DNA from: Panorpa germanica
Lineage: Eukaryota; Arthropoda; Insecta; Mecoptera; Panorpidae
Assembly: GCA_963678705.1 (NCBI GenBank)
Contig: CAVMBN010000168.1
Span: 1-64,000, forward strand
Length of the DNA: 64,000 nucleotides
Direction: 5' to 3'
In this document: one piece after another, positions 10,796-59,809 of the stretch
Layout of the letters: every line of letters begins with the position of its first letter
Position numbering within the stretch: position 1 is the first letter of the stretch
Notes under the pieces: generated by a model
The model's input: the letters and a program-made list of their open reading frames with translations, nothing else
What the model was told of the DNA's origin: nothing
Database searches by the model: none
Translations under genes and position numbers: made by a program

Positions 10796-10887
10796 ATATT
10801 GTTATAGCACACATTCCATACAACACAAAACTAACAGTGTCTCTTCAGTATCTTTGCTGACCAAGCACTCTAGAGATAGTAAAATAG

Positions 10888-10894
10888 TATATAA
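10888..10894 (+). promoter_or_regulatory. TATA box of the LTR promoter
   Basis: TATATAA about 90 bp into the LTR. Initiation would be expected some 25-30 bp downstream, near 10915-10920, which would put both LTR hairpins in the transcript. The start site is an inference. Confidence 0.55.
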
Positions 10895-10937
10895 GTAATG
10901 TATTAGTCTTAATCTAATTAGTTCAAGTTTATGTATA

Positions 10938-11007
10938 ATCTGCATCGTGCAGATAGTAATTAGCTGGCTCACCATTTGAGTTCATGTATAAACTGCATCG
11001 CGCAGTT
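10938..11007 (+). promoter_or_regulatory. Paired hairpins in R/U5 with ATCGY loop
   Basis: Hairpin 1 is ATCTGC-ATCGT-GCAGAT (10938-10954). Hairpin 2 is AACTGC-ATCGC-GCAGTT (10991-11007). The second base pair of the stem changes from T-A to A-T between them, so pairing is kept while sequence changes. Both sit in a duplicated ATGTATAA...TAGTAATT context. The same pair recurs in the 3' LTR at 18121-18137 and 18174-18190. Confidence 0.75.
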
Positions 11008-11092
11008 AGTAATTGAATCAAATAAATATTATTTAAGTAAACTTAAAATAAATTGTTTTTTTTATTAAAGTCTAAATTACTCAAACTTTAAT

Positions 11093-11103
11093 TGGCGCAG
11101 TCG
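11093..11103 (+). promoter_or_regulatory. Primer binding site, tRNA-Ser type
   Basis: TGGCGCAGTCG directly at the LTR edge, the PBS used by gypsy-group errantiviruses. The identical motif starts at 39087 in the second errantivirus-like element. Confidence 0.85.
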
Positions 11104-11119
11104 TACGGATATTAAGGAA

Positions 11120-11134
11120 TTACAATCGCTGTAA
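11120..11134 (+). promoter_or_regulatory. Hairpin with ATCGC loop just after the primer site
   Basis: TTACA-ATCGC-TGTAA, a 5-bp stem about 17 bp downstream of the primer binding site. It has the same loop as the LTR and leader hairpins but a third stem sequence. Confidence 0.6.
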
Positions 11135-11278
11135 ATTTTTCCATTTTTATGGTTAACTTAATATTTCGAAACCTACAAAAATAAAGTTAAAGAATAAAGT
11201 GAACTTAATAAATAGTGGAGTGAAATAGAAACAGAAAGTGAAGTGCTCCGAGGCTCATCGACCCACTAGCAGCAGCAT

Positions 11279-11328
11279 ATGGACATGAAGATCTCGCAAG
11301 GCATCGCGGTGATAATCGTAATGTGAGT
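11279..11328 (+). promoter_or_regulatory. Short leader exon and splice donor for env mRNA
   Basis: An ATG at 11279 opens a 44-nt frame that ends at a strong donor (GTGAGT at 11323-11328). The encoded stretch is short, basic then hydrophobic, like the start of a signal peptide. Its phase (two bases over) matches the candidate acceptor at 16262/16263 upstream of env. Errantivirus env mRNAs are known to be spliced; the specific junction here is predicted from sequence. Confidence 0.65.
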
Positions 11329-11410
11329 ACTCATTCATATTTCCTTTCTATATTCACACTTCCCAAAAACAAAAATTATTATTATTTTTACAATAATATT
11401 TCCTGTTTAA

Positions 11411-11706
11411 AAAAAAAGGAGTATAAATCGCTTATACAGGCCTAAAAACAGGTATTAAATTTAAAAAAAAGGAGTATAAATCGCTTATACAGGCCTACCA
11501 AATATTAAAAATAATATTAAAATAAATATTACACAACGTAATACATAATAATTAAATAATAATTTTCTAAAAAGGAGTATAAATCGCTTATACAGGCCTA
11601 CCAAATATTAAAAATAATATTAAAATAAAATATAAATTACGCAACGTAATACAATAATTAAATAATAATTTTCTAAAAAGGAATATAAATCGCTTATATA
11701 GGCCTA
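11411..11706 (+). repeat. Four leader hairpin repeats (possible packaging or regulatory array)
   Basis: Four copies of an AAAAAGGA + hairpin + AGGCCTA unit. The hairpins are at 11421-11437, 11474-11490, 11577-11593 and 11683-11699. Three read GTATAA-ATCGC-TTATAC. The fourth reads ATATAA-ATCGC-TTATAT, with both bases of the outer pair changed so that pairing is preserved. Copies 2-4 lie in a longer repeat of about 103-106 bp. The array lies between the env splice donor and gag, the same place as the insulator repeats of gypsy, but it does not resemble the Su(Hw) site. Confidence 0.8.
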
Positions 11707-11851
11707 ATGAAAATTAAAAATATCAAAACTAATACTATAATGTAATATAATAAAATACTTGCAAATTAACTATATAATAATAATAATTTTTTTAAAAATA
11801 AAATGTTTACAAAATAACTTTTCTTAAATAAAAGTTACACTATAAATCAAA

Positions 11852-13573
11852 ATGGAGACATTCCATATTTATCTAAATTATGTAAAGGAATATAATGGAA
11901 ACAATTCGCTGACGAATTTTATAGAAGATTGCGAAGTGATCATAGATAATTTTGCCATATTCCCCGGTAAAAATGAAGATAAAAAAGAAGCTATTAGGAA
12001 TAACGGTCTATTGCTCTCAGCTATAAAAAGCAAGATTATTGGAGACGCAGCAAGTTTAATAAAGAATAAACATATTAATACATGGGAGAAATTAAAAACT
12101 ATTTTAATAGATAGTTATACTAAAAACCGCAGCCATATCCCGGAAACAACAACACTTAAACGAAAGCCTAATGAGAAAGTTATTACTTATTACTTTAGAT
12201 GTTTAGAATCAGTTAACAACTTTAATGTTTTGAACACACTTCACAATAAAACATCTTTAAATATGAAAGCACTGGCAAAACATCATGATTCCCTGATGGT
12301 GAGAGATTTCATAAAGGAGCTAAACGATCCTCTTGGATGTAAATTAAGACGCCAAAATCCTAACACAATGGATGAGCTTCTAGAATTAATAATAGAAGAT
12401 ATGACGAACCACGAAATCCATACTAACGAGGAATATAACCACCCTCACCAACAACAAGTGAAGAACACACAAGATTTTCAAACAGAGCCGTCAACACAAA
12501 AACCGTGTGAAACAATAATCGAACAAACCATTGAGAATAAAGAAATAGACAATGTACGGACGGAACTACAAGAAGTAATCATAAACAACGAGAGTACAGA
12601 AATCAAAGTACAAAACCAAAATTCAGAAGAAAAACGGGACACAGAAACAAATGAAAATAAAAACGATATCAAATTACATAAAGAAATGGCGATCAATGTG
12701 CCCACAAATATTAAAATACAAAGCCAGAATAATTCAGAAGAAGTTCTGAATACAGAAGAAAAGGAAAAAGAACTTGAAGAGTTTACCAAAACAGAAGTAA
12801 AGAAAAAGACAATTGTTGAAGTAAAAATGAAGCAAAGAAAAGTAAGCGTCAAAGAAAACACAGAAAATCAGCAAAATATGAAACAAGAATCAGAGAATCA
12901 AAATTCACAACATTTCAAAATACAAAATCAACAAAAAGTTAAGCAACAATCAAAAAATCCAAACTTTCTAGATTTTAAAGTAAACAATCAACAAAAAATC
13001 AGACAAGTAGCAGAAAAGCAAACTATACAAGAACTCGAAATAGTGAAGCAACAAAACATCAACCAAGAAAAACCAGAAAAACAAAATATACAATATTCTG
13101 AAGTAAAAAAATTACACAATATAAAGCAAGGAAAAGCAGGAAATAATAAAAATCAAAATTTTAAAATAAAAAATAAAATTGAAAAGAAAAAAAGAAACAA
13201 AGCTAAATGCATACCAGAAAAACAAGAAGATTCAGAAAACGAGGCACACACTTTGTGGATAAATGATCACAGAAAAGAAATAATTCGTGGACAGAAGATT
13301 AGAAATTCGGCACAACTAAAGCAACTATATGGAACCAAACGAAATAAAAATAATAACTGGATAGATGAATATTTGACGAATATTATGACGAATAAAAATA
13401 ATAAAACATATATTGACTTTACTTTAAAGAACTTCCTGATAAGATTAACTTCAAAAAAGTCTTCAATACTTCCCGAAAAAATTAAAATTTCTACCCGAAC
13501 CTTAACAATTCAAATACGCAATCGCAAGCAACCAGACCCACGTGACTATATAATATTTAACTCCGAAATTTAA
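11852..13573 (+). CDS. Gag fused to a Lys/Gln/Asn-rich charged module
   Basis: Open frame of 573 codons. Residues 1-190 look like a gypsy-group Gag capsid region: helical, with a WEKLKTILIDSY segment and a SLMVRDFIKELNDPLG motif near 150-165. About 200-455 is a low-complexity, highly charged stretch with recurring KQ/NQQ/ENQN units. About 456-573 is a separate basic tail with WINDHRKE and NNNWIDEYL. There is no zinc knuckle and no protease DTG. In the element at 38819 the same charged module (NQQKIKQVAGKQTIQ against NQQKIRQVAEKQTIQ here) comes after a protease. A deletion joining gag to this module is therefore likely. Confidence 0.85.
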   Translation: METFHIYLNYVKEYNGNNSLTNFIEDCEVIIDNFAIFPGKNEDKKEAIRNNGLLLSAIKSKIIGDAASLIKNKHINTWEKLKTILIDSYTKNRSHIPETTTLKRKPNEKVITYYFRCLESVNNFNVLNTLHNKTSLNMKALAKHHDSLMVRDFIKELNDPLGCKLRRQNPNTMDELLELIIEDMTNHEIHTNEEYNHPHQQQVKNTQDFQTEPSTQKPCETIIEQTIENKEIDNVRTELQEVIINNESTEIKVQNQNSEEKRDTETNENKNDIKLHKEMAINVPTNIKIQSQNNSEEVLNTEEKEKELEEFTKTEVKKKTIVEVKMKQRKVSVKENTENQQNMKQESENQNSQHFKIQNQQKVKQQSKNPNFLDFKVNNQQKIRQVAEKQTIQELEIVKQQNINQEKPEKQNIQYSEVKKLHNIKQGKAGNNKNQNFKIKNKIEKKKRNKAKCIPEKQEDSENEAHTLWINDHRKEIIRGQKIRNSAQLKQLYGTKRNKNNNWIDEYLTNIMTNKNNKTYIDFTLKNFLIRLTSKKSSILPEKIKISTRTLTIQIRNRKQPDPRDYIIFNSEI

Positions 13574-14090
13574 AACTAAAAAGAATAAAACTCTAGAACG
13601 AACAACCAACCACCAACCACCTTAATAAAGAAAATTGTATGAACTATTAAAAGAATTATTCAAAACAACCATTTAAATAAATTACTACAAATATTACGAT
13701 AAACAATACATTGACAAAACACAACAGACAAAAAGAAAAAGGAAATGATGAAACGAATTGAGAATCATAAACAACCACCTTAATGCAGAAAATCGCATAA
13801 GCACTGTTTATCACCAGCAGTAAAACCCTATAAACATACAAATTAAGCGACATCAAGTAATAACTATTTCGATACAATTACCAACGAAGTTAAAATTATT
13901 AAAATTAATAAAAAGAGTAAATTATTTAAATTAAAATAAAGAAACACGACCTATTAATATCTACATTAACAAAAACTACATTTAAAAATAAAAGTCAATA
14001 AACCCATTGTAATGATAATACATATTAAATGTACAATAATTTAAAAGATAAACACCATCGGAAAATATAAAAACGAGCATAAAATAAAAA
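13574..14090. other. Non-coding A-rich internal stretch of the LTR element
   Basis: Stands where protease, RT and RNase H would lie in a complete errantivirus. No RT motif is seen in any frame. Stops are dense and no frame is supported. Confidence 0.7.
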
Positions 14091-14400
14091 ATGATATCAG
14101 ACATCAAGAAACAAACGCAACGCACAAGGTCATTTACGAAAGATATAGCCGTGTATTCTAATAAAATACGTGGAAACTGCAAGCAATTTGCAAGCAATGC
14201 AAATACCATGATTTGAACGCCGCTAAATTACACAAAAACAACTGTGAGAGCAAAATATAAGCGCATTCCACAATACCAGAGTACCCGGTATCATAAAACA
14301 TAAACATGACCTATCCAAGTCAAATGTGCTATTATAAGACGTAATGAAACCCTATACTCCAGTACAAAAGATAATGCTACATTAACAAACTAAGTCAGCA
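14091..14400 (+). pseudogene. Diverged, shortened duplicate of the integrase region
   Basis: Nucleotide resemblance to two separated parts of the better copy downstream: first ACGAAAGATAT... and ...AACGCCGCTAAAT (compare 14695-14800), then CGCATTCCAC...AAACATAAACATGACC (compare 15115-15165) and TGCTATTATA...ACGAAACCC. The piece between, which holds the integrase catalytic centre, is deleted. It has no open frame. Confidence 0.6.
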
Positions 14401-14639
14401 TTTCTAATTCAGGTACTATGATAATCCATATACTAACACATTGGAAAACACAAAAATAAAATAGCAATTTTATCTGCATAAAGTTAAGGAAATAAATACA
14501 GACAGTACAATTCATTATCATGATTAAAGCTACTGTTAAAAATCCAAATGTAGACACAGTATACATGAACACTAACAAAAAACATAGCAATAGCGGAATA
14601 AAAACATAAAACCTTTTTTTAAGTAAAAGAACCACCAGA

Positions 14640-15318
14640 GTAATAATCAGAATCAGCAAGTAATGAAGTAATAGACGTCACATACAAATTAATTTGCGAA
14701 AGATATACGTGGTCTAGTCTACGAAAAGATGTCGAAAATTTCATCAATAACTGCAGCACATGCAAACAGTGCAAATATAAAAGAAAACCAATTAGAGCAC
14801 CGCTAAATAACACCGAAACACCTGAGAGACCACTTGAGAAATTACATATAGATACGTTTGGTATAGACAATATTATAATAGATGTATTTTCAAAATAACC
14901 ACAGGCATACAAAATCGCCAATAGGTCATCCACAGAAATTGCCGATAAACTAATAACGTATTTCTCACACCACGGCATACCTAATCATATTACGATGGAT
15001 GGAGGAACTGAATTCTCAAATAATCTCATCAAAGAATTACTAGAATTACATAAAATCGAAATTCATATAACAACACCATACAGACACGAAAGTAATTCTC
15101 CAATAGAACGAGCACATTCCACGATACTAGAACTATATCGTATAGCGAAACATAAACATGACCTTACACCCGAAACAATTATGAAATATGCTATTATAGG
15201 ATATAACGAAACCCCACATTCTAGTACAACATATAAACCTTTTGAAATAATAAATGGACACTTACAAACCAAGTCAGTATTGCTTATGGATTATGATAAA
15301 ACACTCATGGACTTATAA
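14640..15318 (+). pseudogene. Integrase, zinc-binding and catalytic region, broken
   Basis: Retroviral-type integrase would insert the cDNA. A zinc-binding trace (NNCSTCKQCKY) lies near 14740-14775, and the first core Asp in LHIDTFG near 14850. A short deletion and a TAA (about 14897) follow. The 14995-15318 frame then has MDGGTEF (second Asp) and SPIERAHSTI (Glu), the rest of the D,D-35-E core. A frameshift near 15300 moves the C-terminal domain to another frame. Not functional as it stands. Confidence 0.8.
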
Positions 15319-15769
15319 CACCCAAAATCATAAAACTAAAATCTCAACCCTATACTCAAAAATTAAAGAAATAAATGCAAATCGAAAAGAACAGATTATT
15401 AATAAGAGAAATGCTACCGTTAAAGACCCAAACGTAAAACAAGGAGATATAGTATACCTCAACACTAAATCAAAACAGGGCAAAAGCCGAATAAAGAACA
15501 CAGGACCCTTTAAAGTACTAGAAGTGTCCGATACTTATATAGCTAAAATAGAAGACCTAAAAAATAAAAAATTAAGAGAAACACATGTAGATAACCTAGT
15601 GAAAACCAAAATGAAAAACCCAACTTCAAACGAACTTAACGAAGAAGGAAGTAATGTACTATTCGAATGTACTACACTACCTGTAGATAACATAGGAAAA
15701 ACCAAAATGAAAAACCCAACTCCAAACGAGTTTAATGAGAAAGGAATTAACTACACTACCTGTCGATAA
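15254..15769 (+). pseudogene. Integrase C-terminal domain with duplicated tail
   Basis: Contains the VKQGDIVYLNTKSKQGKSR and TGPFKVLEVSDTYIAKIED strands of the small beta-barrel at the end of gypsy-group integrase, then a DNLVKTKMKNPT segment. That segment and the following 25 or so residues are repeated (second copy near 15700), a tandem duplication of about 100 bp. The natural start is upstream in the frameshifted core; the first ATG here is incidental. Confidence 0.7.
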
Positions 15770-16205
15770 ATCTAAGACAGATTATATTCTACACCTAGTT
15801 CACGACAAATTTAACCCCAGAGACGAAAAACCAAGATATTACAACGGATTCGCAAAGTTAGTAGCAAAGGACACACCCAATTTCGAATACATATTAAATA
15901 AAGCTAAAAGAACTAATAACCTCGTAGAGGGCCTATACAAACTCACGCGAATCAGAACATTTGGACACACAATAAATCTTGTCTGCAATCAACAAAACTG
16001 CCTTGACAAACTTGCCAAATTTCTAAAAGAATTTGAAAATTCACCAACCGAATTAATAATACGAATGCCCCCTATAGCACAAGGACTTTTTAATAGAACA
16101 AAAGAAGAGGTCCTAGAAGTATTTAAACGGCATGGGCCCACAAAGCACAAATACATCATGCACTCAAATCCCGAAATACAAATGAATTATTTATTTATTA
16201 ATTAA
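15735..16205 (+). CDS. Unrecognised ORF between integrase and env
   Basis: Open frame of 156 codons, starting within the duplicated integrase tail in a different frame and ending in an AT-rich stretch before the env acceptor. I do not recognise it. It looks like a folded protein rather than low complexity: a hydrophobic core with FAKLVAKDTPNFEYILNKA, an RTFGHTINLVC-like strand, paired cysteines (CNQQNC near residue 95) and a basic end. It may be a pol C-terminal extension or an accessory gene. It could instead be a continuation of the integrase frame after a small indel, since its first residues repeat the TTLPVD motif. Confidence 0.5.
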   Translation: MRKELTTLPVDKSKTDYILHLVHDKFNPRDEKPRYYNGFAKLVAKDTPNFEYILNKAKRTNNLVEGLYKLTRIRTFGHTINLVCNQQNCLDKLAKFLKEFENSPTELIIRMPPIAQGLFNRTKEEVLEVFKRHGPTKHKYIMHSNPEIQMNYLFIN

Positions 16206-16250
16206 TTATAAATAAATATATTAAAAACACGATCAAGTACTAAGAAATCC

Positions 16251-16263
16251 TGATTGTTGCAGG
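16251..16263 (+). promoter_or_regulatory. Predicted splice acceptor for env
   Basis: TTGTTGCAG followed by exon sequence from 16263, in frame with the env ORF for about 26 codons upstream of its first listed start. Its phase is compatible with the leader donor at 11322/11323. Confidence 0.6.
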
Positions 16264-17961
16264 ATCATCACCGCAATCAACACCAGCGATATTAACGAAT
16301 GCCGAATTATTAAAATCACTGATAACCCAGGATTATATCCTGTGCAACTAGGAACAGCCCAAAACATCAAGGAATATTGGACTTTAGTCAAGAAAATAGA
16401 TTTGGACCCCTTAATAAAATATTATAACCACGTACACTTGACTAGAGAAGATATTAAAACGAAATTAGAAAAAAAGAAATTTACAAGATATGGGCACAGC
16501 ACTGCTGTAATGGACATCCTGAATATGGAAATAAGTAGAAAATTTAAACAAATTCTCCCAACTCGAAGAGAAAAAAGAGGCTTCATAGATGGCTTAGGTA
16601 CTGTTTGGAAAGCAATCGGTGGAAACCTAGACGCTAACGACGGCGAGCGTATAAATTTAGCCCTGGAAACACTTGATAATAAACAAGAAACTCTAAATAA
16701 AGCTATATCTAAACAAATAAAATTAACGAACGATATACTCGATCAATTTAAATCGGCCCTACACACCATTGATTCTAATCAAGAAGAACTAGATAAACGT
16801 ACCAAATTCCTAATGAACGATATCGATAAACTCCAACACCAAGTATTTAACATCTTTATAACAGAATCGATCGGACTTGTCAGTCAATCAATGCAATTAC
16901 TTTTGCACCTACTAAGAACCATTGAAACTGACATAACATTCGCTAAACTGAACACGCTTAGTGGTTCAATCCTAGAACCTGATCACCTATTAGCAGAATT
17001 ACAAGCAATAAAGGAACATGTTGATACAACCAAACATATCAAACTGCCTTACGATATTACATCAGAGAACATTCAACAATATGAAACTATTAGCAAAGTC
17101 AAAGCATACACCAATAAAAACTTAATCGTTTTTGTAATAAATATACCACTAGTAAACCCTAATATATTTACGTATTATAAACTATATCCAATCCCCATAC
17201 CTTATAACAATAAATTCCAAATGATTATTCCCAGAACCCAATACACCATTGTGAATGAGTATAAACATGTAGATTTTAATGCACCCTGCAAAGAAATATA
17301 TAACAATCAATTCCTATGCAAGCTTAGCGAACCACTCAACATCGAGGAAACCACCTGCGAGATAGAACAAATTCAAAACCAGCCAACCAGCAAATGTCAA
17401 CCCTTAGTGATTTCTCTAACCGGTATCAAGATCCAGAACGTCGAATTCAACACCTGGATGTTAATCACAAATGACGAAATCAGTGGCACCTTAACATGCA
17501 ACAGCCAGCGTGACATACGTCTACAAGGAACGTATATAATACACCTTGCACGAGATTGTCAATTTTCTGTTTCAGATAATACTCTTCAATACATGGATAT
17601 AGAAGAGAAAGTCGAAGCCTGGAACACCATTTCCCTGCCGAAAATACCAGAGATCCAAAACAAACACCTAAACATCTCTACCGTGACCAACCTAAAACAC
17701 CTGGACCTGGGCAACTTAGACAAGCTACAGACCACCCTAGCCCTACTACCTGAAGACTTCGATGACAGAAAAATCCCAGACTATGTGCACATAATTAATT
17801 ATACACTATTACCCATATTATTCATAATAATTACTATTGTAGTATATAAGATAATCAAATATTTTAGAAAAATAAAAATAATAAAAAATGAAAATGCACA
17901 AGAAATAGATAGCAAAAATATTGAAGAGTTGCAAAAACCTTTTGCTACATTTGAAGCATAA
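16263..17961 (+). CDS. env: Envelope fusion glycoprotein (env), errantivirus type
   Basis: Membrane fusion protein of the errantivirus/baculovirus F-like class. The open frame continues from the predicted acceptor at 16263 to TAA at 17959-17961; the part from 16342 alone is 539 codons. A furin-type site (RREKR, 16564-16578) is followed directly by the GFIDGLGTVWKAIGGNLD fusion-peptide region typical of the family, then a coiled-coil heptad segment, a Cys-rich region (Cys codons at about 17287-17500) and a transmembrane stretch (about 17800-17860) with a short basic tail. No in-frame stop is seen. The signal peptide is probably supplied by the leader exon. Whether it is expressed is unknown. 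Confidence 0.88.
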
Positions 17962-17974
17962 GATTTTATCTTAT

Positions 17975-17982
17975 AGGGGAGG
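17975..17982 (+). promoter_or_regulatory. Polypurine tract
   Basis: AGGGGAGG immediately upstream of the 3' LTR, the plus-strand primer for reverse transcription. Confidence 0.8.
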
Positions 17983-18276
17983 TGTTATAGCACACATTCC
18001 ATACAACACAAAACTAACAGTGTCTCTTCAGTATCTTTGCTGACCAAGCACTCTAGAGATAGTAAAATAGTATATAAGTAATGTATTAGTCTTAATCTAA
18101 TTAGTTCAAGTTTATGTATAATCTGCATCGTGCAGATAGTAATTAGCTGGCTCACCATTTGAGTTCATGTATAAACTGCATCGCGCAGTTAGTAATTGAA
18201 TCAAATAAATATTATTTAAGTAAACTTAAAATAAATTGTTTTTTTTATTAAAGTCTAAATTACTCAAACTTTAATT
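17983..18276 (+). repeat. 3' LTR of the errantivirus-like element
   Basis: Reads the same as the 5' LTR base for base as far as I can follow, including both hairpins. The 4-bp ATAT duplication follows. Confidence 0.92.

Positions 18277-18319: not shown

Positions 18320-18380
<61 letters not shown>
18320..18380. repeat. (TA)n microsatellite
   Basis: About 60 bp of uninterrupted AT alternation just right of the LTR element's duplicated ATAT target. Confidence 0.95.
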
Positions 18381-18383
<3 letters not shown>

Positions 18384-18594
18384 TATTATTATATGACAAG
18401 AAATGTTTATTTTCTGATATTGCATTCTATATTTGTAATAATTTTAATAGAAATTCCTGTTTAGTTTACATTTGACTATTGAATATTGCCGAACTGACCG
18501 CTAGAATACCTAAGATTAACATCGGGACCGCCAATATCGAAGCTGCTAATTTTACTGACGTGCAAATATACTGATTTGCAAGTTTTGTCTGTAG

Positions 18595-39087: not shown

Positions 39088-39341
39088 GGCGCAGTCGTCG
39101 TCCAGCGGCGGAGATAAAACCAACGCATCGTGACGGAAAAGAACAAATCTACTCACCCCAGGGAAGAAGATTCGAAAGTTAAATAAAATTAAAAATAAGC
39201 TGTGTAAAATATAGTGAAGTGAACCGATAACTAAGGACCAAGGACAAAGGATTACAAGAAGATTAAAGGTTCATCTATTAATATAAACAATATTATAATT
39301 TTTGAAAATAATCCTATTTTCCTTTTATCCTACTCTAATAT

Positions 39342-40106
39342 ATGATAGATCAATTGAATTACCTTTTCACACAATTAAATATAAATAAAAAAGAAAAAAT
39401 GACAACGTCAACTAATAATAATTTCCAACAATATTTGGGAATGATAAAAGAGTATGATGGTAGATCCGAAGGGTTACCGGACTACATTAGAACAAGCGAA
39501 TTGTTACTAGGACAATTTTTCAATGAAAATAAAGTAGATTGCTTCGACAACATCGCTTTAATAGAATCGATTCGGGCAAAATTAACTGGAAAAGCTGCCT
39601 TACTAATAGAAGGAAGAGACATACAGAGCTGGGCAGAAATTAAAATGACATTGACACAAGCATTTTGCGACCCTAGAGATGAGATGTCATTACTGCAAAA
39701 ACTCATGGAAATAAGGCAGAGGAATGAAACATTCCTTGAATACTACGAAAAGTGTAGAAAATTGAGAGCATTATTATATGCTAATCAAAAATGCAATGGA
39801 GCAATAGAAGAAAGAACTATGAAGACAAAAATGTACGACGAGGTGGCTCTTAAATCATTTAAAGCAGGCTTAAGGGAACCTTTTGGATCATTCTTAAGAA
39901 CCAGAGCACCCACTACACTGGAACAAGCAATCTCTATTGTAACAGAAGAGCAGAACGACAGGAATTGGCAAAGACAAGAAGGGAATATAAATAATAAACT
40001 GGTACAACAACCAGTCAGAATGACACAAAGAACATTCAACAACCCTAAACAATCGAAAAACTTTAATATTTCCCACACATCCGATTTTAATGATAAACGA
40101 TCATGA
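39342..40106 (+). CDS. gag: Gag of second errantivirus-like element
   Basis: 254 codons, with a gypsy-group Gag capsid-like fold: QQYLGMIKEYDGRSEGLPDY, SIRAKLTGKAALLIEGRDIQ and a SFKAGLREPFGSFLRTRAPT block near residues 175-195. A second ATG at 39399 could be the true start. The frame stops just before a duplicated 45-bp segment (CACACATCCGATTTTAATGA, twice between 40073 and 40142), so it may have lost its C-terminus. No zinc knuckle. Confidence 0.75.
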   Translation: MIDQLNYLFTQLNINKKEKMTTSTNNNFQQYLGMIKEYDGRSEGLPDYIRTSELLLGQFFNENKVDCFDNIALIESIRAKLTGKAALLIEGRDIQSWAEIKMTLTQAFCDPRDEMSLLQKLMEIRQRNETFLEYYEKCRKLRALLYANQKCNGAIEERTMKTKMYDEVALKSFKAGLREPFGSFLRTRAPTTLEQAISIVTEEQNDRNWQRQEGNINNKLVQQPVRMTQRTFNNPKQSKNFNISHTSDFNDKRS

Positions 40107-58566: not shown

Positions 58567-59809
58567 TGGGATAAAGAATGTAAAGAATGGAAAAAAGAGG
58601 TAAAAACGGAACTAAAGAGATGGAAGAAAGGAGAATCAAGTAAAGAAGACTTTAAGATAAAGCAAAGGGAGTAAAACGAAATGATAAAAGATGAAAAGAA
58701 TGAGTTTAAAATAGGAATAGAAAAAGAAATTAGAAAGAAAACAACGTAGAGGCAGGCATGGGATTACATAAATAGGGAGAAAAAGCGAAGGAAAAAGCCA
58801 AGCAAGGAAATAAAAATGAAAGAGTAGACGAAACACTTTATGGGAGTACTAGGAGGAAAGAAAAGAAACGAGAAAACAAAGTAGGGGATAAAAGAGAAGG
58901 AGAAAGTAAACGAAATAGAATTAGGTGAAATAAAAACACAGATTCAAAAACTAAAGGAAAAGAAAGCACCAGGTAGAGATGGACTAAAGAACGAGGCGTG
59001 GAATGCTGGGCAAGAAAGGATAGAGAAAGGATTACTGACAGCGATGAACAACATATGGAAACCTGCCAGACAGCTGGAGAGAAGGCATAATAACGCCGAT
59101 ATATAAAAAGGGAAATAGACATGAAGCCAAAAATTACAGGGGTATCACACTACTGAACACAGGGTACAGGATTTATGCAGGGATTGTGAGAGAAAGACTG
59201 GAAGAAGAGGTAAAAGTAAAAGAAATACTTCCCAAAACACAAGCAGGCTTTAGAAAGGGACGAGGAACTTTAGACAATATATACGCACTGAACCATGTAG
59301 TTGAAAAAGAGCTAAGGGAAAAAGAAGGACAGATATATGCAATGTTCATCGACCTTAAAGCGGCGTTTGACATGGTCGACAGACAGAAATTGTGGAAGTA
59401 CATGAGAAAGAAAAAAATAGATGAGGACATAATGGAATGTATTGAAGAAATTTACGAAGAAACAAGAATGAGAATAAGAGTTGGGGGTGAAGAATCAAAA
59501 GAATTCTGGACAGACAAGGGGTTGAGGCAAGGTTGTTCTCTGAGCCCCATTTTATTTGCGATATATACAGCAGACTTGGAGGGGGTAATGGAAAGAGGAC
59601 AAGATGGAGGGGTGCCAATAGGAAGGCACTACAAGATATGGACTTTAGCATACGCTGACGATATAGTTTTGTTGGCAAAAAGGGAAGGAGAGCTGCAGGA
59701 GATGGCACACCGGCTAGGGAGGTATATAGACAGGAAAGGACTAGAGTTAAACGTGGAAAAGACAAAAATTAAGGTATTTAAAAAAGGAAGGTGGAAAAAG
59801 GAGACATAA
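58567..59809 (+). pseudogene. LINE L ORF2, reverse transcriptase
   Basis: RT open from 59186 (RERLEEEVKVKEILPKTQAG, FRKGRGTLDNIYAL), motif A FIDLKAAFDMVDRQK, GLRQGCSLSPILFAIYTADL, catalytic YADD at 59651-59662 and KGLELNVEKTKI. The upstream part (58567-59185) contains the linker and KKKAPGRDGLKNEAW and ARQLERRHNNADI blocks, with stops. Key catalytic Asp residues are kept. The frame breaks at 59807. Confidence 0.85.

Follow-up and report, generated by a model that had tools for sequence, protein, structure and literature searches.

The 5' part of an LTR element in the window (the whole stretch of 64,000 nucleotides analysed here) carries seven hairpins that present the same loop on perfect stems, and copies of the element elsewhere in the genome indicate that this loop is better written AUCGH, H being any base but G. 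Our best explanation, which we hold tentatively and from sequence alone, is that these hairpins form an array of small stem-loops on the element RNA, with AUCGH as the part recognised by a single protein and the stem merely presenting the loop to this protein. Two or three such sites would lie in R, near both RNA ends, and one directly 3' of the primer site; the env intron, upstream of gag, would usually contain one to four more, each in a 32-nt unit. The full-length RNA would keep the units of the intron, and with them the largest number of sites, and would be preferred. The reader would most likely be Gag, or else a protein of the host recruited together with it, and the most likely result would be the packaging of full-length RNA.

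The element (10800-18276; + strand, as are all features below unless stated) had paired LTRs, a gag ORF, integrase pieces and an env ORF. The 5' LTR (10800..11093) and the 3' LTR (17983..18276) were identical over 294 nt and the target duplication ATATAT was present on both sides of the element, both being features of the errantivirus type. A run of about 38 TA dinucleotides (18320-18394) lay just past the 3' LTR. The 5' LTR contained a promoter-like TATATAA box (10888..10894), with the RNA probably starting near 10920, and the sequence AATAAA (11021..11026), the likely poly(A) signal. It was followed by the primer binding site GGCGCAGTCG... (11094..11110), 3' of which the bases differed between copies; the primer-site sequence TGGCGCAGTCG, from 11093, is again of errantivirus type and we take it to be Ser-type (tRNA-Ser). 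At positions 11104-11106, the window and its copies showed two main forms, ...GTCGTACGG... and ...GTCGGTAGG..., with a minor share of about 0.35, perhaps reflecting two primer tRNAs. The gag ORF (11852..13573) encoded 573 aa from its ATG, with a basic C-terminal part, and gave no match to the CCHC pattern used. Integrase was represented by two ORFs (14647..15318), with H2C2 above and rve below the cut-off. The env ORF (16225..17961, 578 aa), with a predicted splice acceptor before 16263, was related to the baculovirus F protein (Baculo_F, PF12259, E 1.1e-31), as in errantiviruses; a protein search with env retrieved four relatives, as protein sequences only. Two direct repeats of 72 nt, 85% identical (15583-15654 and 15679-15750), separated the integrase pieces from env. 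No reverse-transcriptase domain was matched in the scanned ORFs of the window copy, which we thus consider defective, and no + strand ORF of at least 45 aa was present between gag and 14647. The element is therefore called errantivirus-like solely on account of its LTRs, its primer site, env and the integrase pieces. The window also contained the gag-like ORF (Retrotrans_gag) of another element at 39339-40106, and a reverse-transcriptase ORF at 59048-59809.

All seven hairpins listed in the preliminary description were recovered at their positions, with perfect stems and the loop ATCG[C/T]. Hairpin U1 (10938-10954, ATCTGC-ATCGT-GCAGAT) lies in what is probably R, and hairpin U2 (10991-11007, AACTGC-ATCGC-GCAGTT) forms the top of a longer hairpin ending just 5' of AATAAA. 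Given the position of this AATAAA, U1 and U2 would sit at both RNA ends; they are repeated in the 3' LTR at 18121-18137 and 18174-18190. The post-PBS hairpin (TTACA-ATCGC-TGTAA) is located at 11120-11134. The last four hairpins, at 11421-11437, 11474-11490, 11577-11593 and 11683-11699, belong to leader units 1 to 4 (11412..11443, 11465..11496, 11568..11599 and 11674..11705), the fourth having an A-T instead of a G-C outer pair. In these four, one 32-nt unit is repeated in tandem, and a second unit is repeated in the two LTR hairpins. Because of this copying within classes, the independent hairpin classes number three (LTR, post-PBS and leader). Other copies of the element had an extra LTR hairpin, U3, with a CTGT or CTGC stem, that was absent from the window. 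Across the 64 kb, the search for further ATCG[C/T] hairpins in the same register with stems of at least 4 bp yielded a single case, at 15133 with 4 bp on the + strand, the - strand having none, and 0/214 ATCG sites outside the element, on both strands, were in a same-register hairpin of at least 5 bp.

The leader exon (11279..11322) contains the short ORF MDMKISQGIAVIIV, which encodes the predicted start of an env signal peptide, and is followed by a predicted env splice donor, AAT/GTGAGTA (11323..11324), whose motif was also present in two family B copies (see below for the families). Joining this donor (11322/11323) to a good acceptor (16262/16263) would produce an env message with a signal-like peptide start. 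With respect to these predicted sites, four of the seven hairpins would lie 3' of the donor, where most of a retroviral packaging signal is expected, and three upstream of it. The leader units are located between donor and acceptor, that is, in the predicted env intron, so that spliced RNA should lack them. The statement of the preliminary description that the leader copies are carried by unspliced RNA only is thus supported for these four hairpins, but the other three would be in spliced RNA too and cannot, alone, mark unspliced RNA. If R is as we infer, full-length RNA would have seven sites and env RNA three, the sites of the 3' R being added in both cases.

We favour packaging because there are several sites, most of them expected on unspliced RNA only, in a leader that is common to two types of Gag. 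The packaging signal already proposed from the position of the leader copies thus remains our best guess, with Gag as first choice, rather than an established function. Export or splicing control comes second and seems to us rather unlikely. A host factor for export or splicing would then bind the intron units, and intron-containing RNA would leave the nucleus in the manner of a constitutive transport element. This would fit both the location of the units between the predicted donor and acceptor and the repetition of identical recognition sites, but it leaves unexplained why R and the stretch 3' of the primer site have the same loop, in hairpins that spliced RNA would carry as well. In the literature consulted (mostly without subscription journals), we found no account of how full-length RNA is chosen for packaging or export in insect endogenous retroviruses.

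A shuffled AT-rich leader did not account for the hairpins, an outcome that had been proposed as a test of their significance. None of 2000 dinucleotide shuffles of 10920-11860 reached seven ATCG hairpins, and 21/2000 had even one. When a single copy per class was retained (10980-11460), three ATCG hairpins were obtained in 0/2000 shuffles, any three hairpins with the same loop in 1/2000 and three sharing a loop with at least two G/C in 0/2000. Duplication explains the number of hairpins per class, not the loop common to the three classes. Only moderate support came from an arm-swap test, based on the folding of chimeric arms, in which 71/5040 arrangements were as good as the native one. Folding energies were less telling for the short hairpins: the leader units (-4.5 to -3.3 kcal/mol) gave weak z values against shuffles (-1.24 to -0.41), U1 and the post-PBS hairpin gave -1.57 and -1.74, and the fourth leader hairpin, with pair probabilities of 0.17-0.26, was not the favoured fold. 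The long hairpin before the poly(A) signal was far stabler than its shuffles in the window (z -4.07), and a U3-type stretch from copy L119, cut short on one side, gave -1.45.

Copies were searched in the genome of the window (464 Mb). The core pattern of the leader hairpin had 294 reported matches, and a looser pattern of the leader unit with fixed loop and flanks had 623; the reversed controls gave none in either case. The copies to be compared were chosen by a 14-base primer-site pattern and not by their hairpins. This pattern also had 294 reported matches, and as it gave the same counts as the leader core (149 forward and 145 reverse), the totals were not relied on. The sample comprised 82 sequences, the window and the first 81 of the 100 listed among these 294 matches, and was divided into family A, that of the window (51), families B (18), C (8) and D (4) and one unplaced sequence. 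One copy classed in A by words, L186, was left out of the alignment and adds no hairpins to the counts below; it combines an A-like leader before the donor with another LTR and a gag of a second type without start, and matching with substitutions allowed found no hairpin of any class in it.

The 50 other sampled A copies contained 307 hairpins (51 U1, 39 U2, 27 U3, 50 post-PBS and 140 leader), detected with up to 7-9 substitutions and no indels, so that copies broken by indels can be missed. The stem was perfect in 292 of them (48 U1, 37 U2, 26 U3, 48 post-PBS and 133 leader), five had a G.U pair and ten were broken. The decay of stems without compensation, named beforehand as the observation that would speak against the hairpins, was thus confined to 10/307. 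Leader units numbered four in 4 copies, three in 35, two in 9, one in 1 and none in 1. The copy without leader units, L174, was considered as a possible sign that the leader is dispensable, but its deletion junction was whole in 1/40 scored places, L174 itself, and therefore provides no evidence of movement without leader units.

Changes on both arms of a stem were observed in three places. Between U1 and U2, a T-A pair is changed to A-T. In hairpin U3, the corresponding list, drawn up with no condition on loop or stem, comprised 100 of 198 genome matches, among which one pair was T-A in 64, C-G in 34, U.G in 2 and C.A in 0; these places are not independent because both LTRs of single elements are included, and the changes could have been copied from U1 or U2 by conversion. 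In the leader, the outer pair of the 140 hairpins was G-C in 96, A-T in 42 and mismatched in 2, and the 100 matches listed of the 623 leader-unit matches showed the stems with these two pairs and six altered ones, one of them with a U.G pair. The hairpin before the poly(A) signal, in addition, comes in two types, U2 and U3, with lower stems that are different on both arms, and in each of the 15 distinct forms found in the 50 copies the minimum-energy fold included its outer and inner stems. The compensation claimed in the preliminary description thus corresponds to few events, about three two-sided base-pair changes and one replaced lower stem. The covariation is thin, the family is young and the copies are not independent. 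The further claim that structure is selected fared better, since both the pairing and the shared loop look selected from the shuffles, the perfect stems, the U3 counts and the two R sequences that fold alike.

The loop had been described as a constant ATCGC/T, which proved accurate for its first four positions, nearly fixed among the 307 hairpins (A 307, T 306, C 303 and G 305), but not for the fifth (C 235, T 55, A 17 and G 0). This fifth position was C or T in U1, C, A or T in U2, C or T (one copy) in U3, C or A in the post-PBS hairpin and C, T or A in the leader. In the alignment, its minor frequency was 0.40 in U1, 0.20 in the post-PBS hairpin and 0.36 in leader unit 1, a value of 0.2 being reached by 4.0% of 454 background sites; conversely, none of the 46 other hairpin sites exceeded 0.1, versus 21/454 background sites. 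The variation of the same loop position under unrelated stems is our strongest reason for proposing that one factor would read all hairpins. Among the 100 U3 matches listed, seven were off the AUCG core (ATCCC, GTTGC, TTCGC, AGCGC, ATTGC twice and ATCAC), as would be expected of decaying copies.

Excluding position 5, the mean minor frequency was 0.0077 at hairpin sites versus 0.0285 in the background, a modest extra conservation. Random triples of windows were as low in 990/20000 cases after removal of the most variable site from every window, which is the fair control, and in 244/20000 after removal of a fixed site; columns with fewer than 40 letters and the mixed part 10975-11020 were omitted. 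A control including the mixed U2/U3 columns (176/20000) was rejected as too kind, its background being inflated. The hairpins could also have no function, having arisen by chance, multiplied by tandem duplication and been spread by a young family whose youth would pass for conservation. Two of the three classes are indeed tandem duplicates, much of the leader has diverged nearly as little and the folding is weak. We nevertheless consider this quite unlikely, since it does not predict a loop common to three independent classes or variable at the same position in each of them, a 32-nt leader unit that stays constant while its flanks differ, or R hairpins that fold alike despite different sequences.

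The array is not general but belongs to one lineage, because family B (18/82 sequences) lacks most of the hairpins. The post-PBS stretch of family B resembles that of A and its post-PBS hairpin has a 6-nt loop, AATCGC; no LTR or leader ATCG hairpins were found in the B copies read. Sets of hairpins sharing one GC-containing loop were found in 0/31 copies outside family A (families B, C and D and the unplaced sequence). Within family A, 33/51 sampled copies had the Gag-type start of the window. Nine of those without it were translated as a second type, and eight of these nine had hairpins. This second type (MANFTGYLNYIKEF... where the start was seen) followed the same LTR and leader in L140, L111, L131, L152, L170, L172, L175 and L180, which suggests that gag was exchanged between elements. 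The two types were 42-57% identical over their first 68-129 residues and about 29% beyond. The leader is also that of a lineage in which a 1301-nt stretch without reverse-transcriptase ORF (13400-14700), this absence being judged from the ORFs of the window only, was nearly whole in 33/40 scored places at 90-100% identity, and in 14 of these 33, window included, at 99-100%. The family thus looks as if a lineage without reverse transcriptase had spread in trans, and since this stretch is widespread, cis signals usable in trans are expected. Beyond this genome, 60 IMG/VR stretches (L001-L060) matched a 15-base core; they were taken as chance because the AGG...AGGCCT flanks were absent from their printed context. 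No env or gag relatives were confirmed in IMG/VR, and the leader-unit pattern had no match in the prokaryote genome collection.

On a broader and more doubtful reading, AUCGH would act as a modular address in the RNA of an insect retrovirus lineage, with one protein reading both RNA ends, the primer site and the intron. Common to elements with different Gags and to a lineage without intact reverse transcriptase, it would serve as a common pass for packaging and for mobilisation in trans. If true, this hairpin address would help to explain the mobility of a lineage without evident reverse transcriptase. In any case, such a repeated hairpin, its loop defined and variable at one position, offers both a direct hypothesis and a bait with which to find the reader.

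It is improbable that the hairpins mainly serve reverse transcription, those of R and the post-PBS one steering strand transfer or dimer formation and the leader units adding dimer contacts. The R hairpins, probably located at both ends of the RNA, would agree with it, as would the post-PBS hairpin, which is also seen in family B copies, but the leader units are outside the regions of strand transfer and CGAT, the complement of the loop, is absent from 10920-11860; kissing loops, also considered, were set low because of this absence from the leader. Recognition of RNA rather than DNA is suggested by three unrelated stems under one loop (arms CTGC/GCAG, TATAA/TTATA and TTACA/TGTAA), and the U.G intermediate without C.A, in two places only, agrees with it. 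Tandem dyads bound by a DNA-binding protein as an insulator or enhancer, like the gypsy leader or the Idefix LTR, are thus likewise improbable, as three different dyads would need different proteins and a factor reading ATCG alone would not need complementary arms, despite a position and tandem repetition that resemble the gypsy insulator in the available part of its description (PMC7800606). Against the packaging array that we favour stand the weak leader and post-PBS stems, the modest conservation, the gag without CCHC match and the restriction to one young family.

The preliminary description knew of no errantivirus motif of this kind, and the literature consulted, again mostly without subscription journals, yielded none. 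In Rfam, the window had 0 matches at the gathering score and the region 10900-11880 had 0 up to E 5. The constitutive transport elements of simple retroviruses are a repeated RNA motif on intron-containing RNA; the likeness lies in the repetition, but here the hairpins are small, separate and numerous, and are also found outside the intron. Dispersed packaging signals present a loop motif on variable stems. Several stem-loops present a recognition motif to the capsid protein in MS2, picornaviruses and hepatitis B virus, according to the accessible parts of the reports (PMC6281560, PMC7793301, PMC4751978, PMC8677749). Those signals are spread over the genomes of other kinds of viruses, whereas ours are clustered within the 5' part of an LTR element's RNA.

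Among insect LTR elements, gypsy has an insulator of 460 bp with 12 sites in its transcribed leader, and Idefix has one in its LTR (PMC7800606, as far as the available text goes). Gypsy thus shares with our element repeated sites in a transcribed leader; these insulators are DNA elements, in contrast to the constant loop and variable complementary arms found here. Ty3 is an LTR retrotransposon that likewise has functional 5' RNA structures, but with a palindromic dimer site and, in the available part of the source, no repeated loop motif (PMC11381356). Finally, alpha- and gammaretroviral leaders contain GACG tetraloop hairpins, reported in the part of the source available to us to have a role in packaging and perhaps in dimerisation (PMC516450); these are similar in that one loop is conserved among hairpins of a retroviral leader. 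Their loop, GACG, is different from the five bases of AUCGH, and we claim no homology; furthermore, our hairpins are located in the putative R, in the stretch that follows the primer site and in the predicted intron, and their role in packaging is proposed from sequence. By analogy, these GACG tetraloops and the dispersed packaging signals would be the nearest to our array in their working principle.
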